A stretch of 55,959 nt of DNA. It comes from a virus. The notes below the pieces were generated by a model that had not been told where the DNA came from, ran no database searches, and worked only from the letters and a program-made list of their open reading frames with translations. The stretch's first letter is position 1. Each line of letters opens with the position of its first letter. A program made the translations under genes and the position numbers. Below, in pieces: positions 949-38,114 of this stretch. Location: positions 1 through 55,959 of the IMG/VR virus record IMGVR_UViG_3300036791_000391, one strand, 5' to 3'.

Positions 949-1035
949 GCTAATTGCTACCGCGCTATCAATACGTGCTATTCTGACAGGAGATCGGCAT
1001 AGGGCCGGTCATGAACACCCAGGAGATTCGCACGC
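949..1035 (+). promoter_or_regulatory. Promoter/operator/UTR cassette A
   Basis: AATTG at 952 is followed by the dyad TACCGCGCTA, then TGCTATTCT as an extended -10-like element near 977-985. A UTR hairpin follows at 992-1009 (arms GATCGGC/GCCGGTC, loop ATAGG), then CAGGAGATTCGCACGC up to the ATG at 1036. The same order recurs at nine other places in the window. It gives the following rightward gene its own promoter inside the leftward head operon. Confidence 0.75.
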
Positions 1036-1656
1036 ATGATCACCGTCAAGGTCTACCTCAACCAGGCCAGCCACTTCCGCGCCTTCAACGCGTTCCGCGC
1101 CGAGCTGCAGCTGGCCGTCACGTTCGAGATCGACGCCACCGAGCCCGAGTTCGTCGTGACCGACGACCCGAGCCTGAGCAACGCCGAGTTCGACGTTCGC
1201 TACCGTGCCGCCCGCGACGAGCACAACACCTGGGTCGACCCGATTCTGAACCACGTCTACGAGCAGCTGAACGTCGGCGGTGACGTCTTCCCCGCCGAGC
1301 CGTACACCGTGGAGTACCGGATGGCCGGTAACCGCTCGCTCTCGGTGGGCGACCTGGTGGTCCTCGAATGGGACCGGGAGCTGGCCAACGTGACCCGCGA
1401 CGGTCGTCCGGTGGTCGTTCACGAGGTCGAGCCGTTCGCGGTCGAGCCGGTAGGCTTCAAGCGCACTAGCTCGGTGGCGATCCGTAAGGGCGTCGAGAAC
1501 TTCACCAAGAACGCGAGCAACCCAGACCGCTTCGTGCCGGTCCCGCGCACCGACCTGGCCGTGAACGACGCGGGCATGTTCGTCCTGAAGAACGAGCGCC
1601 CCGAGCCCGCCTTCACCTTCGAGTTCGTGCAGGAGGATCTTCGCAACGGCCTGTGA
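1036..1656 (+). CDS. Cassette-driven orphan protein, unknown function
   Basis: The product has 206 residues, no signal peptide or membrane segment, and no family I recognise. Acidic and basic residues are mixed and the C-terminus is FEFVQEDLRNGL. The ATG is fixed by the strong AGGAG of cassette A. It is a single-gene rightward insert between the leftward 115-aa gene and the acidic head gene, closed by the hairpin at 1663-1697, so it has moron architecture. High-level expression is inferred from the cassette. Confidence 0.8.
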   Translation: MITVKVYLNQASHFRAFNAFRAELQLAVTFEIDATEPEFVVTDDPSLSNAEFDVRYRAARDEHNTWVDPILNHVYEQLNVGGDVFPAEPYTVEYRMAGNRSLSVGDLVVLEWDRELANVTRDGRPVVVHEVEPFAVEPVGFKRTSSVAIRKGVENFTKNASNPDRFVPVPRTDLAVNDAGMFVLKNERPEPAFTFEFVQEDLRNGL

Positions 1657-3323: not shown

Positions 3324-4775
3324 TCACCATGTGGGTGCGGTCAGACCCGTGATCTGCACGACCGATTGAGGATACCTAGCTGCACTAAAGGCCAGATAAT
3401 TGTAGATCTGCAGCAGGACCGTCAGGTTCTGCGCCTTGGTCTCGGGAAGGACGCGAGCCCGAATTCCGGCCTCCCACAGCACGATGTCGCTGGCGCGCAT
3501 CACGAGCACCGGGTCCTCCGTGCCCGCGCCGCCGGTGACCGGCAGGTTTGGGTCGGTCACGACCGGGAGGCCCTGGATGCTGCCGACGACCTGCTGGGAC
3601 GCCACGTCGGTCAGCAGACCGGCGGCGTTCATCGGCCCGTAGGCGGTCGGCATGACCAGCGGACGCTGTTGCTGGTCGAGCAGCGAGGTGAACCAGCCCC
3701 ACCTGCGTGGGTGCATGACGATGACCTCGGGCGGCAGGAAGCGGGTCGAGTGGATCGTCTGGATCGCGTTCGCGATGGACGAGAAGAACCCCTTGATGTC
3801 GACCGTAGTCGCGGCGACGGACCCGATGTTCGGCGTCTGCAAGATGCCGAGGATCTGGCCGCTGGCCCCGGTACCGGAGATCACCTGGCCGTCCGTCTGG
3901 GCGGCGTGAGCCGCTACCAGGTCGCGGAACACCACGTCGTCGAACGCGATCGGCGATTGATCGATCAGCTGGATGGCCAAGCCTTGCTGGCCGCTGATCG
4001 TCCGGACCGGCGCGTTGATGAAGGTGTCCGTCAGGTCGACCTGAACGACGGGCTGGTTGTCGGCGGTCTGCACACCGACCTGGGTACCGGTGATCAGCTT
4101 CGGGATGTTGATCGAGTCGGTGCCGCCGGGCAGCGGTTGCCGCTGGACCAGGTTGGCCAGCGCGCGGCCCGGACGGGCCAGCTCGATGTACTGCGACATC
4201 AGCCAGGCGGGGGGTACCGCGTAGCCGCCGGAGCCGTCGACCCGGGATAGGTCTCGGAACTCCTTGTACTCGTCGCTGGTCTGCACCTCGGCGGCGTGCC
4301 GGAACAGCCGGTCGCGCGCCTCACCGGTGGTGTCCAGGTTCATCGAGTACTTGATGAGGTCCTGCAGGTAGCTCCGGTTCGGGTGGTTCTTCGGGTAGAC
4401 GTTCTGCTCCTTGACCCGGGTGATGACATCCCCGGCGGCGCGGATACGGGCCAGCCCCTTGCTGATCTGGCCGCTGCGTTCGACCTCGGCGCGGGTCTGC
4501 TCGATCCGCTCCTCCAGGCCCTTCAGCTCGTCGCCGATCTTGGCCATGTTGGTCATGTAGCCCCGGAGGTCCTTGTCCTCCTCGGCTTCCAGCGTCTCGC
4601 GGCCTGCGGCGCGGGCCTCCATGAGCACGGCCTCCGCCTTGCCCTTCAGCTCGTCGCGGTCCCGTACCAGCTTGGTGTGCCGCTTAAGCAGCTGGCCCAG
4701 GTATACGTCCAGCCCACCGGCTGGCTCCACACGTTGGTCGACCTCGCCGTTCAGCGAGTCAATTGTCGCGGTCAT
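3324..4775 (-). CDS. Major capsid protein, HK97 fold with delta domain
   Basis: The product has 483 residues. The first ~110 are a charged coiled coil (LLKRHTKLVRDRDELKGKAE onward), the scaffold-like delta domain usually removed by the S78 protease. From ~170 the HK97 capsid pattern follows: GSGGYAVPPAWL, then a P-loop-like TISGQQGLAIQLIDQSPI region, RDLVAAHAAQTDGQVISGTG, and a C-terminal AFSAARYPQSVVQITGL. The start has an AAAGGACGGAG ribosome site. It should be the most abundant virion protein. Confidence 0.93.
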   Translation of the reverse strand: MTATIDSLNGEVDQRVEPAGGLDVYLGQLLKRHTKLVRDRDELKGKAEAVLMEARAAGRETLEAEEDKDLRGYMTNMAKIGDELKGLEERIEQTRAEVERSGQISKGLARIRAAGDVITRVKEQNVYPKNHPNRSYLQDLIKYSMNLDTTGEARDRLFRHAAEVQTSDEYKEFRDLSRVDGSGGYAVPPAWLMSQYIELARPGRALANLVQRQPLPGGTDSINIPKLITGTQVGVQTADNQPVVQVDLTDTFINAPVRTISGQQGLAIQLIDQSPIAFDDVVFRDLVAAHAAQTDGQVISGTGASGQILGILQTPNIGSVAATTVDIKGFFSSIANAIQTIHSTRFLPPEVIVMHPRRWGWFTSLLDQQQRPLVMPTAYGPMNAAGLLTDVASQQVVGSIQGLPVVTDPNLPVTGGAGTEDPVLVMRASDIVLWEAGIRARVLPETKAQNLTVLLQIYNYLAFSAARYPQSVVQITGLTAPTW

Positions 4776-4983: not shown

Positions 4984-5694
4984 ATGGTGATTCGTCAGGC
5001 GGTTGAGAAGCTGGAAGGACCGGAGTTCGTCGCCGCGCAGGCCCGGGCGTGGACGGACATCCGGGAGTTTGTCGAGGAGGCGGTGCTGCCGGTCGTGCAG
5101 AGCGAGACGGGCGGCAGCGTCAACGGGCCGGGCTCCTCCTTGGGGTGCACCACGGGGCTGGTTGCCGACCTGCCCGAGTTTTGGAGGCGGCACGGTATCT
5201 CTTCACTCCTCGACGCGCCCTGCGGCGACTGGACGTGGATGCAGCACGTGGACCTGACCGGGGTGATCTACGTCGGCTGGGACTGCGACGAGGAGCTGAT
5301 CCGGCGCAACCGGGAGCGTTTCGAGCGGCGCGGTGATGGCCGGATGGCGTGGTTCTTCTGCCGGAACATCCTGACCATCCACAAGCTGCCGATCATGGAC
5401 GCGGTCTTCTGCCGGGACTTCCTCGCCCATCTCCCGACCGAGCACATCGTGGACGTGCTGGCCAAGTTCCAGGCCAGCCGCTGTACCTACTTGATGGCGT
5501 CGAACTATCCCGGCGTGAGCAATGAATTCGAGTACCACCCGGAGAACTTCGCCTGGCTGGGCTACTGCGAGCGCCCGCACGATCTTGAGGCGGCACCGTT
5601 CCACCTCTCCAAGATCGACGCCCTGCCCGAGATCGCGGGACCGGGCGGGGTCATCTCCCTCCCGCACGAGCTGGCCCTGTTCCGGCTGAACTGA
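4984..5694 (+). CDS. Class I SAM-dependent methyltransferase
   Basis: The product has 236 residues from MVIRQAVEKLEG. Motif I is LLDAPCGDWTWM, the following acidic strand end is YVGWDCDEEL, and FCRDFLAHLP fits motif IV. The target is unknown; small molecules, sugar or protein are all possible, and no DNA-recognition domain is visible. It is the first gene of a two-gene rightward island inserted in the leftward head operon, so it probably has its own promoter. An in-frame extension to 4897 is open but looks non-coding. Confidence 0.85.
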   Translation: MVIRQAVEKLEGPEFVAAQARAWTDIREFVEEAVLPVVQSETGGSVNGPGSSLGCTTGLVADLPEFWRRHGISSLLDAPCGDWTWMQHVDLTGVIYVGWDCDEELIRRNRERFERRGDGRMAWFFCRNILTIHKLPIMDAVFCRDFLAHLPTEHIVDVLAKFQASRCTYLMASNYPGVSNEFEYHPENFAWLGYCERPHDLEAAPFHLSKIDALPEIAGPGGVISLPHELALFRLN

Positions 5695-5939
5695 TGGTCA
5701 AAGGCATCGTTATCGACGGACCGCATGCGGGCCGCGTGCTGGACCGGCTAGGAAATAACGCCTCGCCCCTGACGGTCATCCTGATGGACGGCGACTTCTG
5801 CTACCACGAATACGAGCGCGTCGAACCCGTCGGCGGCGTTCACCGCTACCGTTACCTAGCCCGGCTAGGCCGCCCTCGGTGGGCGATGTTCCAAACGAGA
5901 ACCGCCCCCGGCCCGAGAAGCGCGGGGGCGGTTCGATGA
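5694..5939 (+). CDS. Small basic protein coupled to the methyltransferase
   Basis: The ATG overlaps the methyltransferase stop (TGATG). The product has 81 residues. The first ~55 (GIVIDGPHAGRVLDRLGN, then YHEYERVEP.GGVHRYRYLA) look like a small beta-barrel. The last ~20 codons run through the terminator stem at 5899, so the C-terminus is unlikely to be folded. A similar arrangement with a sheared 3' end would look the same. Confidence 0.6.
   Translation: MVKGIVIDGPHAGRVLDRLGNNASPLTVILMDGDFCYHEYERVEPVGGVHRYRYLARLGRPRWAMFQTRTAPGPRSAGAVR
5899..5934. terminator. Terminator T1 (stem GAACCGCCCCCG)
   Basis: A 12-bp stem, 5899-5910 with 5923-5934, loop GCCCGAGAAGCG. On the minus side it is followed by TCTCGTTTGG, so it can stop leftward transcripts; it also closes the rightward methyltransferase pair. 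It is nearly the same stem as T2 at 6181. Confidence 0.75.
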
Positions 5940-5945
5940 TTGGCT

Positions 5946-6152
5946 CTACGCGGTCGTCTTGGCGAGGGACGCTTCCAGCGCGGCCAGCAGATCCGCGACC
6001 TCGGCCTCGGCCTCCCGCTCGACCGGGGCCAGCTCGCCGCCGCTGGCCTTGGCGTGCACCAGCTCGGTCAACCGCTCCGTGTAGGTGTCGGTGTGCTCGG
6101 CGGGCTCGAAGTCGGCGTGCATCGACTCGACCAGCGCCGCCTTCCGGCTGTG
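5946..6152 (-). pseudogene. Remnant of a Ku gene (C-terminal region only)
   Basis: The open frame ends at the TAG at 5946-5948. Conserved Ku C-terminal sequence starts at about 6152: RKAALVESMHADFEP, then DTYTERLTELVHAK and a final VADLLAALEASLAK. This is the end of bacterial Ku, which binds broken DNA ends and recruits LigD. The whole beta-barrel core is missing, and an in-frame TGA lies just upstream of the homology. A 58-aa peptide from the ATG at 6120-6122 could still be made. No frameshift is present in what remains. Confidence 0.7.
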
Positions 6153-6164
6153 AGGTGGGACTCA

Positions 6165-6262
6165 TTGCCACGAAACAAGAAACCGCCCCCGGTGGCAGGT
6201 CGGGGGCGGTTCTCCTTGCTCGCGCGAACGGGGTCACCCGACTAAGTCGCTCGGTCCGCGCA
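6165..6262 (-). ncRNA. Possible short RNA between promoter H and terminator T2
   Basis: The dyad promoter at 6271-6293 fires leftward. No start codon with a ribosome site lies before the strong intrinsic terminator T2, which is followed by TTTCTTGTTT on this strand. A transcript of roughly 80-100 nt is predicted. It may be a real small RNA or what is left after the gene between promoter and terminator was deleted. An AAGGAG remains at the foot of the T2 stem. Confidence 0.35.
6181..6211 (-). terminator. Terminator T2
   Basis: AACCGCCCCCG (6181-6191) pairs with CGGGGGCGGTT (6201-6211). In the leftward direction it is followed by the U-rich TTTCTTGTTT, a good intrinsic terminator. Confidence 0.8.
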
Positions 6263-6267
6263 AGGCT

Positions 6268-6293
6268 GACTCTACTCTACCGCGCTAGCAATT
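6268..6293 (-). promoter_or_regulatory. Dyad promoter H (core without UTR hairpin)
   Basis: Leftward AATTGCTAGCGCGGTAGAGT, the exact core found in the other cassettes. The GGC/GCC UTR hairpin and the GATTCGCAC start region are missing downstream. The core overlaps the end of the zinc-protein gene and supplies its last codons and stop (N-C-TAG). Confidence 0.7.
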
Positions 6294-6476
6294 AGCGTCC
6301 TTTTTGGCGTGCCGGGCTGTGCTCTCGGTCACAACCGGCTCGGCCTTGAGATCCCGGCAGTCCTCGTAGGCGTGGCTCCCATCGAGGTGCATCCAGACAC
6401 CCTTCGCCCCGACATACGGGGAGAACTTCCGGATCGGCTTCCCGCAATGTCGGCAGTCGGCGGTCTCGTCGCTCAT
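6285..6476 (-). CDS. Small zinc-ribbon-like protein
   Basis: The product has 63 residues. CRHCGKPI...VWMHLDGSHAYEDC gives C-C-H-C ligands for one zinc. Its ATG overlaps the stop of the transglycosylase gene (ATGA). A paralogue with the same spacing (CRHCGIPIR, WFHV, YRACRD) is encoded at 37947-38114. Function unknown. Confidence 0.8.
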   Translation of the reverse strand: MSDETADCRHCGKPIRKFSPYVGAKGVWMHLDGSHAYEDCRDLKAEPVVTESTARHAKKDANC

Positions 6477-7060
6477 ACGAACGGCCCCACTCGCCCGCCA
6501 CGACGGTAGCCGTGCGGCGGCATCGTGGGGTCGGCCTGCTGAACGTTGAGGATCGCCTGCTCGGCGGCGAGTTTTTTGCCCAGCCCGCCCTCGCCACGGC
6601 TCGGGGCGTCCGGTCCCGCATATCGGCTCTTGATGTAACGGATCGAGGCCCGGATGTTGCTGACCGGATCTGTCAGAGTTCTCGGGTCGATCCCCACCCC
6701 GGCGGCGGTGCTGGGTGTGACCTGAGCCACCCCGACAGCCTCGTTGCCGCCCGTGTTCACGTCCACATAGCCGTGCTGGGTGACGGACGGTTCCCAGTAC
6801 CCGGTGACCTGGCCCCCGGATTCCCGACCGATCAAGATCCTGAGCGGCTGCAGCCAGATAGCCGGGTCCACGCCCTCCGCCCGGCACGCGGTGACGATGG
6901 CTTCGAGTTCATCGAATCCGCCCGCCCTCGGCCCGGTTGCCGGGGCGTTCACGGGTCCTCCCGGCTGGCGCCGGATCTCGGCCTCGATCTCGTATCCTTC
7001 CGGCGCCTCGATGGTGATGTCCTGACCGTGCCCGGGAATGGGCACATCGAACGAGGTCAT
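6473..7060 (-). CDS. Lytic-transglycosylase (SLT) domain protein
   Basis: The product has 195 residues. Residues ~50-160 match the SLT/lysozyme-like fold: ILIGRESGGQV carries the catalytic Glu, EAVGVAQVTPSTAA is the G-x-x-Q-x-x-PxT motif, and DPVSNIRASIRYIKSRYG-like spacing follows. The family cleaves the glycan of peptidoglycan. There is no signal peptide, and it lies in the head operon, so a virion-carried or packaging-linked enzyme is more likely than the main lysin. Confidence 0.85.
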   Translation of the reverse strand: MTSFDVPIPGHGQDITIEAPEGYEIEAEIRRQPGGPVNAPATGPRAGGFDELEAIVTACRAEGVDPAIWLQPLRILIGRESGGQVTGYWEPSVTQHGYVDVNTGGNEAVGVAQVTPSTAAGVGIDPRTLTDPVSNIRASIRYIKSRYAGPDAPSRGEGGLGKKLAAEQAILNVQQADPTMPPHGYRRGGRVGPFV

Positions 7061-7263
7061 GCGCCCGGGATGGTCGGCGGGAGGACGTACATGACCCCGG
7101 ATTTGGCCTCGTTGGCATAGAGAGCCTTCTGCTGCTGGCGCGCGCTGTCAGGATCGGGATGGCAGCCAGCAATGCGGTCCCCGCTCGCGCCGCCGATCAC
7201 GGCCCACGGTCGGTCGGCGGGGCACCGGCTGGACTTCTCGACATTCCACGGCATGGCACTCAT
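7057..7263 (-). CDS. Small head-operon protein of the CxxxxxWAV...GCH type
   Basis: The product has 68 residues (start MSAMPWNVEK; MPWNVEK at 7254 is an alternative). The pattern MPW..EKS..CP...PWAVI....G...GCHPDPDSARQQ.KALYANE is seen in short proteins, or domains fused to the head protease, in many actinophages, function unknown. Its stop overlaps the transglycosylase ATG. Confidence 0.75.
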   Translation of the reverse strand: MSAMPWNVEKSSRCPADRPWAVIGGASGDRIAGCHPDPDSARQQQKALYANEAKSGVMYVLPPTIPGA

Positions 7264-7296
7264 GGTGGCACAGCGGTAGCGATTAGCCTCGCAGGC

Positions 7297-7530
7297 ATGG
7301 CTACTCAGGCGGAACTTGATAATTGGTACACCTACCACTCCCCCTCCGTCATTCAGGCTCGGCACTATTCCGAGATCCGGGCCAAGGCGAAGGAGCTGGC
7401 CGAGCTGTTCGACCGCGCCGCCCCGGGTTGCCCGGACAGCACCGCCGCGCACCGGAAGCTGCGCGAGGCCGTGATGGCGATGAACTTGGCCATCGCCTGC
7501 AACACCAACGGGGCTCCGTCGTCACCATGA
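7297..7530 (+). CDS. acb2: Acb2-type cyclic-oligonucleotide sponge (anti-CBASS/Thoeris)
   Basis: The product has 77 residues from MATQAELDNW. NWYTYHSP, HYSEIRAKAKELAEL, then CPDSTAAHRKLREAVMAMNLAIAC is the hallmark sequence of the Acb2 family. Known members form hexamers that sequester cyclic di- and trinucleotides and so block CBASS effectors. The aromatic Y/W cluster at residues 10-13 and lysines 30/32 fit ligand-contact positions. It is the first gene of a rightward island and its stop overlaps the next ATG. Binding of a given nucleotide is not provable here. Confidence 0.85.
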   Translation: MATQAELDNWYTYHSPSVIQARHYSEIRAKAKELAELFDRAAPGCPDSTAAHRKLREAVMAMNLAIACNTNGAPSSP

Positions 7531-8090: not shown

Positions 8091-9063
8091 GCAGCGCGCC
8101 GGGCTGCTCGTCGCCGTCGTCACCGGGATGCGGCCCAAGCTCGAGGAGCGCCCGACCGCCGGTTTCCTGGACGGCCTGGACGGCTTCGGGGTCCAGGACA
8201 TCGTGTGGGTGGTCTCCGAGCGGGACGCGCCCAACTACGAGCGCGACGGCCACCCGCTCTGCGTCTACCCGAAGGACTGGTCCTACGAGTACGCCAGGAG
8301 CCACTGGATGCTCGCCGCCGAGCCCAACCCGCAGTTCCTCGGCGCGTTCCCGGGCCGGGAGTGGGCCTGCCGGGAAGCGGAGCGGCGCGGCTGCTGGGGC
8401 GTGCTGCAGTGCGACGACAACTTCATCCGGATGGTGATGCCGCGCGACGGCTGGGCGGGCCGTGAGGTGGTCGCGCGCAACGGCGGGATGGCCCTGTTCG
8501 TGGACCTGCTGATCGCGGTCGCGCTGAGCACCAACGGGCGCATGGTCGGCGCGCAGCTCAGCTCGATCCCGTACGTCAAGTTGCAGCTGGCCCGGTCCGG
8601 GTTCCCCTACTCGTTCTTCATCGAGAAGGTCGGGCCGGGGCGCGAGGACTGGTACGGGCCCTACGAGGACGACATCACGCACGCGTTCCAGTACGGGTGC
8701 CGGGCCGACGCGGGCAGCTCGACCGCCGTGGTCGTGCCGACGCTCCGGTACAAGAAGGAGCCCGGCTCCAAGTCCGCGATGCGCTCGTACTACGACCACA
8801 CCCGGGCGGTCAGCCTGCAGCGGATCTTCCCCGAGGCCGCGAACATCACCATCAAGAGCAGGCGCAGCAACGGGATGGGCACCCCGCGCGTCTACCACCA
8901 GATGAGCCCCGGCGCGATCCGCAACAAGATGGTCGTCAAGGACCGTGAGCTGTTCCTGCAGGTCAAGGCCCGGATCGAGGAGCTGCTGCCGGAGTGGCGC
9001 GCCCTGAACGACGCCCGGGTGCGTGAGAAGGTCGCCCGCCGGGCCGCCCTGGCGCACGGCTAG
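8071..9063 (+). CDS. Glycosyltransferase resembling TET-associated (DNA-base) enzymes
   Basis: The product has 330 residues. AVVTGMRPKL near the N-terminus, WVVSERDAPNYERDGH, FLGAFPGREWAC and WGVLQCDDNFIRM (DxD-like metal site) form the GT-A-like pattern I associate with glycosyltransferases of phage base-hypermodification islands (TAGT type). A second half with YDHTRAVSLQRIFP follows. The acceptor could be a modified cytosine, but no TET dioxygenase lies in this window. The stop overlaps that of the convergent 9060-9194 gene. Confidence 0.6.
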   Translation: MFVTKPEQRAGLLVAVVTGMRPKLEERPTAGFLDGLDGFGVQDIVWVVSERDAPNYERDGHPLCVYPKDWSYEYARSHWMLAAEPNPQFLGAFPGREWACREAERRGCWGVLQCDDNFIRMVMPRDGWAGREVVARNGGMALFVDLLIAVALSTNGRMVGAQLSSIPYVKLQLARSGFPYSFFIEKVGPGREDWYGPYEDDITHAFQYGCRADAGSSTAVVVPTLRYKKEPGSKSAMRSYYDHTRAVSLQRIFPEAANITIKSRRSNGMGTPRVYHQMSPGAIRNKMVVKDRELFLQVKARIEELLPEWRALNDARVREKVARRAALAHG

Positions 9064-30936: not shown

Positions 30937-30997
30937 AGCTTCCGGGATTGTGGGGAGGAGATCGGCTAGCGGGCGGGGAGTGTTGCCGGGACTGGCT

Positions 30998-31076
30998 AAT
31001 TGTTAGCGCGGTAGAGTAGAGTCGTGCTCAGTACCCCGGCACCAGGCCAGGGACCAGCACACCAAGGAGATTCGCA
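30998..31076 (+). promoter_or_regulatory. Promoter/operator/UTR cassette B
   Basis: AATTGTTAGCGCGGTAGAGT at 30998-31017; UTR hairpin CCCCGGC-ACCAG-GCCAGGG; AAGGAGATTCGCA directly before the ATG at 31077. It opens the long rightward operon. Confidence 0.75.
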
Positions 31077-37950: not shown

Positions 37951-38114
37951 CCCGATTACCCGTGCAGGAATCGGTCTGCCGACATTGCGGGATACCCATC
38001 CGGCTCATGCACGGCTACACCGGAGATCAGTGGTTCCACGTCCCGAAAGTGCCTCAGGCCAAGGCATATCGTGCGTGCCGGGATGTTTACGCCGAACCGA
38101 GTAAGGAGACCTGA
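37947..38114 (+). CDS. Small zinc-ribbon-like protein, paralogue of 6285-6476
   Basis: The product has 55 residues: VCRHCGIPIRLMHGYTGDQW, then FHVPKVPQAKAYRACRDVYA. Same C-C-H-C spacing as the head-operon copy. Confidence 0.75.
   Translation: MTRLPVQESVCRHCGIPIRLMHGYTGDQWFHVPKVPQAKAYRACRDVYAEPSKET

Follow-up and report, generated by a model that had tools for sequence, protein, structure and literature searches.

The locus and its setting

The locus described here adjoins the major capsid gene in the viral record IMGVR_UViG_3300036791_000391, the whole 55,959 nt of which is referred to below as the window and which is classified as linear and as a probable fragment. The genes encoded in the window include those for terminase, portal, head protease and capsid. 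Between a methyltransferase gene and a ParB-like gene there is a slot which contains a transglycosylase-domain gene, a small cysteine-rich gene, a truncated copy of a repeated leader, a terminator-like hairpin (T2), the remnant of a Ku gene, a second such hairpin (T1) and a small convergent ORF (5694-5939), the 3' end of which is overlapped by T1 (Table 1). The capsid protein is akin to that of cluster J phages, with 55% identity to prophiGD43A-5, 50% to Bipper and ~44% to cluster J mycobacteriophages. The nearest relatives are IMG/VR contigs: the sisters G001 (63.7 kb, capsid 85%) and G003 (97 kb, capsid 83%), whose loci are labeled L069 and L071, and G007 (101 kb, capsid 71%). A DNA-level search of phage records with the Ku region returned only unrelated tape-measure matches.

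Table 1. Features of the cargo slot and related elements in the window
Feature	Position	Strand	Remarks
Major capsid protein	3324..4775	-	Landmark adjoining the cargo slot
Variable cargo slot	5695..7528	.	Between ParB-like gene (from 7529, +) and methyltransferase gene (to 5694, +); adjoins capsid gene
T1, intrinsic terminator-like hairpin	5899..5934	-	12-bp stem; downstream of Ku remnant
Ku C-terminal remnant	5946..6140	-	Homology 6140-5964; ATG-initiated ORF 6122-5946, 58 aa
T2, intrinsic terminator-like hairpin	6181..6211	-	11-bp stem, 9-nt loop, T-rich tail TTTCTTGTTT; between leader and Ku remnant
Truncated leader copy	6268..6296	-	Promoter-like box GCTAATTGCTAGCGCGGTAGAGTAGAGTC, 29 bp, pointing to Ku remnant; lacks palindrome, AGGAGATTCGCA and start codon
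Small cysteine-rich ORF, 63 aa	6288..6476	-	End overlaps leader
Transglycosylase SLT domain cargo gene, 195 aa	6473..7060	-	Pfam PF01464, E 5.6e-6
Complete leader and 206-aa gene	949..1656 (gene 1036-1656)	+	Homologue (73%) at Ku-remnant site in L069
Complete leaders	949, 30995, 32469, 36597, 39762, 42014 (+); 54305, 52560 (-)	+ and -	Eight copies

A Ku C-terminus without the Ku core

Profile searches bore out the Ku identity proposed in the initial annotation of this DNA. The 58-aa ORF matches TIGR02772 (Ku_bact) with E 1.2e-9 over profile positions 200-259 of 259, and PHROG 4873 ('Ku-like DNA end binding') with E 5.7e-12. When the record was searched in six frames, the TIGR02772 match widened to positions 194-259 (E 3.4e-12), with no second match anywhere in the record. 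At the level of sequence, the Ku C-terminal remnant is confirmed as real. It comprises the end of the Ku core and the LigD-binding minimal C-terminus, and the first ~193 profile positions are absent; the score given by TIGR02772 falls far under its cut-off of 150 bits, and the core domain that forms the DNA-binding ring is not there. The Pfam Ku model (PF02735) does not match the fragment because it spans the core only, and the DNA-binding core is absent here. N-terminal regions of 20 Ku sequences (19 viral loci and the G003 Ku), used as tblastn queries against the window, found nothing credible, the best of many matches having E 0.03 over 20 residues. The annotation's description of a Ku end that lacks the DNA-binding barrel is therefore upheld, as is the presence of the C-terminus, with ~60-65 homologous residues and not quite the ~68 that it had given.

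What is left of the gene is well kept. The remnant carries the D..L.A.LEAS C-terminus and retains 10 of the 10 columns that do not vary across seven Ku C-termini, in a frame of coding-like composition with no frameshift, no stop and a third-position G+C of 0.97. Phylogenetically it joins a cluster of 13 phage Ku proteins (98/95 support) that excludes the bacterial Ku sampled, on an alignment of 67 columns only, which is too short to tell which phage Ku is closest; its branch length of 0.28 is about typical (median 0.24). Because the ten invariant columns are kept and the branch is about typical, there is no decay inside the frame, and this therefore points to either a recent truncation or continued selection. 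Upstream of ATG 6122, inspection by eye found no usable ribosome-binding site at a normal distance. It is possible that an intact Ku lies in the missing part of the phage genome; NHEJ circularisation would call for such a Ku together with short cohesive ends, and this fragment shows no intact Ku.

Elsewhere, Ku is usually found entire. A search with a C-terminal profile showed that 19 of 20 other viral loci carry a full-length Ku, and some relatives of the window phage encode an intact one; no bacterial Ku above 57% identity to the fragment was found. The intact Ku that the initial annotation looked for in sister phages does occur in G003, not at this place but ~57 kb from the capsid gene, and some of its neighbors there have homologues at 34-48 kb of the window, where there is no Ku. 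L033 was considered as a further sister and set aside: it has an intact Ku, but without the leader, and its Ku is distant (37%). Another Ku C-terminal end with no core upstream occurs at L208 872-1463, near the contig edge of an isolate prophage, where the frame continues into unrelated sequence; this is possibly host ku beside an integration point. One Ku-bearing relative, G030, encodes an ATP-dependent DNA ligase (111029-111565), the sole case among nine records tested.

Two hairpins with a shared stem

The remnant is flanked by hairpins whose arms, AACCGCCCCCG and CGGGGGCGGTT, occur exactly at 5900-5933 and 6181-6211, are identical over 11 bp and are the only exact arm copies in the window. 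On the minus strand both fold far better than shuffled sequence, T1 at -34.3 kcal/mol (z -5.1) and T2 at -32.6 kcal/mol (z -4.6), and terminator scans place the T-rich tails of both in minus-strand orientation. With such tails and direction, both therefore resemble terminators for transcripts from the leader, and may act as such. Where the initial annotation saw two near-identical terminators, it is the stems that are identical; the loops differ and the regions align poorly beyond the stem, with 77.5% identity over 40 nt. The exact hairpin was found in 19 other IMG/VR contigs, in one copy each, and because it is so rare, two copies within 300 bp are unlikely to be coincidence; T1 and T2 are likely to share an origin. 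An AAGGAG ahead of T2 was considered as a surviving ribosome site and rejected, since it belongs to the T2 stem. Searching positions 5600-6600 against Rfam gave chance-level matches only, and thus no known RNA at the leader-T2 stretch.

A repeated leader before start codons

Nine copies of the leader, an element that the initial annotation leaves unmentioned, were listed for the window, and the one at the Ku site alone is without the GGC..AGGCC part. A complete leader consists, in order, of the AATTGCTAGCGCG promoter-like box, the GGC..AGGCC palindrome, AGGAGATTCGCA or a variant of it (with AGGAG) and the start codon, so that the element is repeated, oriented and immediately 5' of start codons. 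The copy facing the remnant is 97% identical over 29 nt to that at 30995-31023 and breaks off after the promoter-like box: palindrome, ribosome site, start codon and ~194 Ku codons are gone, and T2 stands in their place. A sigma-70 promoter scan gave no match for the promoter-like box, with the terminator-like T1 present and T2 intervening. Counts of leader candidates are approximate, being made with a pattern of our own; they amount to 14 in G003, two in G001, one in G007 and 8 complete copies in the window, with 2, 1, 0 and 2 respectively in reversed-sequence controls. In G003 the intact Ku, of 270 aa, begins directly after a complete leader. The element common to the cargo genes, as judged by comparing these loci, is the upstream leader and not the terminators.

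A variable slot beside the capsid gene

The content of the slot differs in all four phages compared (the window, L069, L071 and L072), in agreement with the earlier proposal that cargo is swapped at this place. At the exact site of the Ku remnant, L069 has a complete leader, a 206-aa gene (8210-8827) and a different terminator, and it keeps just 37 residues of the transglycosylase-domain gene; L071 has a leader followed by several ORFs; and the slot of L072 is only ~450 bp. The Ku cassette is absent from the same site in all three, and an intact Ku was found in this slot in no relative. Together with its leader, the 206-aa gene appears to have moved between slots.

Some smaller rearrangements were also observed among these genes. 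The 206-aa gene, which in L069 occupies the Ku-remnant site, is found past the capsid gene in the window. The ParB-like gene is present in two tandem copies in G003 (L071 4776-5899), compared with one in the window. The cysteine-rich ORF at 6288-6476 (-) is related to another at 37977-38099 (+), with 46.5% identity over 43 aa (E 7e-6) and, at the DNA level, 89% likeness over 28 nt.

Origin of the remnant

We consider it probable that the remnant is a decayed cassette of leader, Ku gene and terminator. The repeated leader of this phage group would drive single cargo genes or small operons, and one slot for such leader-driven cargo adjoins the capsid gene. An ancestor of the window phage would have carried in this slot a phage-type Ku cassette ending at T1, the leader formerly being Ku's own; a deletion or illegitimate exchange would then have taken the palindrome, the start and the first ~194 Ku codons. 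This would have left the promoter-like box joined, via ~50 nt of unexplained origin, to T2, and would have isolated the Ku C-terminus between the two hairpins, presumably with loss of expression. Consistent with such a history are the restriction of Ku homology to profile positions 194-259, with the N-terminal part nowhere in the record; the full-length Ku in nearly all other viral loci; the grouping of the fragment with phage Ku; the intact leader-Ku arrangement of G003; the completeness of the eight other leaders, set against the copy that lacks its palindrome and has T2 next; the variability of the slot in the three relatives; and the lack of a usable ribosome-binding site at a normal distance before ATG 6122. 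Against it stand the undamaged frame with its ten invariant columns and typical branch, and the unaccounted source of T2 and of the ~50 nt that precede it. The ancestral Ku in the slot is a state that we infer, because no relative with an intact Ku there was found, and an assembly error at the hairpins would be an alternative.

The presence of T2 directly after the leader, and of two same-direction terminators with no complete gene ahead of the first, would be accounted for if the slot had once held two cassettes, a leader-gene Y-T2 unit upstream of a Ku cassette ending at T1, from which gene Y and the start of Ku were lost. Several ORFs do lie behind one leader in L071. This history needs at least one extra deletion, no relative carrying gene Y was found, and the shared stem suggests that one of T1 and T2 was copied from the other and that they are not independent terminators; we regard it as rather unlikely. 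The same stems had been read in the initial annotation as recombination points at which cargo is exchanged, and it is true that arms identical over 11 bp recur within 300 bp, are rare elsewhere and flank part of a slot whose content varies. Recombination between 17-bp repeats, with gene gain and loss between short repeats, has precedent in cluster O mycobacteriophages (PMC4351075), but those repeats are palindromes and not terminators, and the stems of the window are not common to its relatives. The sister with other cargo at the exact site has a different terminator, and the stem is missing from the 2.3 Mb of retrieved loci that were searched for it, an absence that the annotation itself had named as counting against its proposal. 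Exchange at the stems is, on these grounds, very improbable.

The intact state of the frame could instead reflect function, as a living small protein, a Ku C-terminal peptide on its own, which would bind host LigD and either recruit or block it. All ten invariant residues, the coding-like open frame with its high third-position G+C and a branch length close to the median argue for such a peptide, and work on subtilis and P. aeruginosa (PMC9638933) can be cited in its favor. Yet T2 intervenes between the promoter-like box and the frame, ATG 6122 has no ribosome-binding site at a normal distance, the other viral Ku loci are full length in 19 of 20 cases, and by our estimate chance alone would keep a frame of 58 codons open in roughly one case in four at this G+C, so that we find a living peptide improbable. 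Some phages integrate in protein genes and restore them via the attachment site. A gene 3' end with a terminator and without its 5' end is the look expected of a Ku attachment site that restores host ku after integration, and in L208 the 3' end of a Ku gene lies close to the edge of a prophage. Searches of the window (itself a fragment) and of eight relatives, however, gave no tyrosine or serine recombinase, integrase or resolvase; the fragment clusters with phage and not bacterial Ku, no bacterial Ku of higher identity than that given above was found, and the location is among head genes. This explanation, scarcely credible, was dropped for want of an integrase and by the tree.

Comparison with known phage systems and significance

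The mycobacteriophage Ku proteins of clusters O (Corndog gp87) and J (Omega gp206) belong to the same family as the remnant and, on a short alignment, to the same phage lineage. Those are complete genes, whereas here the C-terminal part stands alone and the record shows no intact copy. Cluster J Ku proteins end in an Lsr2-like tail (PMC3706429), in contrast to the remnant, which stops at the minimal C-terminus. The leader resembles the SAS/ESAS elements of cluster K phages, of which many oriented copies lie directly 5' of start codons, contain AGGAG and in many cases have an extra upstream element (PMC3203893); like them, it is repeated, oriented, AGGAG-containing and placed before start codons. 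It differs in being made up of the AATTGCTAGCGCG box, the GGC..AGGCC palindrome and AGGAGATTCGCA, not the consensus GGGATAGGAGCCC, and its upstream box is single and not paired. The Ku cassette further calls to mind the moron genes, which are single cargo genes with a promoter-like element and a terminator of their own, found in one phage but not in its sisters. It shares their pattern of presence and absence, but here the gene is truncated, and the promoter-like element recurs throughout the phage genome.

The Ku remnant in the slot of this soil-type phage is mostly a matter of ordinary gene turnover, which the repeated leader makes readable. The case indicates that phage Ku genes come and go as cargo among these large actinophages, and the leader gives a sequence tag for tracing cargo genes as they move or are lost. 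Were the fragment active, it would offer a natural example of LigD binding by a peptide detached from the Ku ring, and such a peptide would either recruit LigD to phage ends or, as a decoy, keep the host from joining DNA ends. For work on phage gene regulation, the leader family may be of more interest than the remnant.
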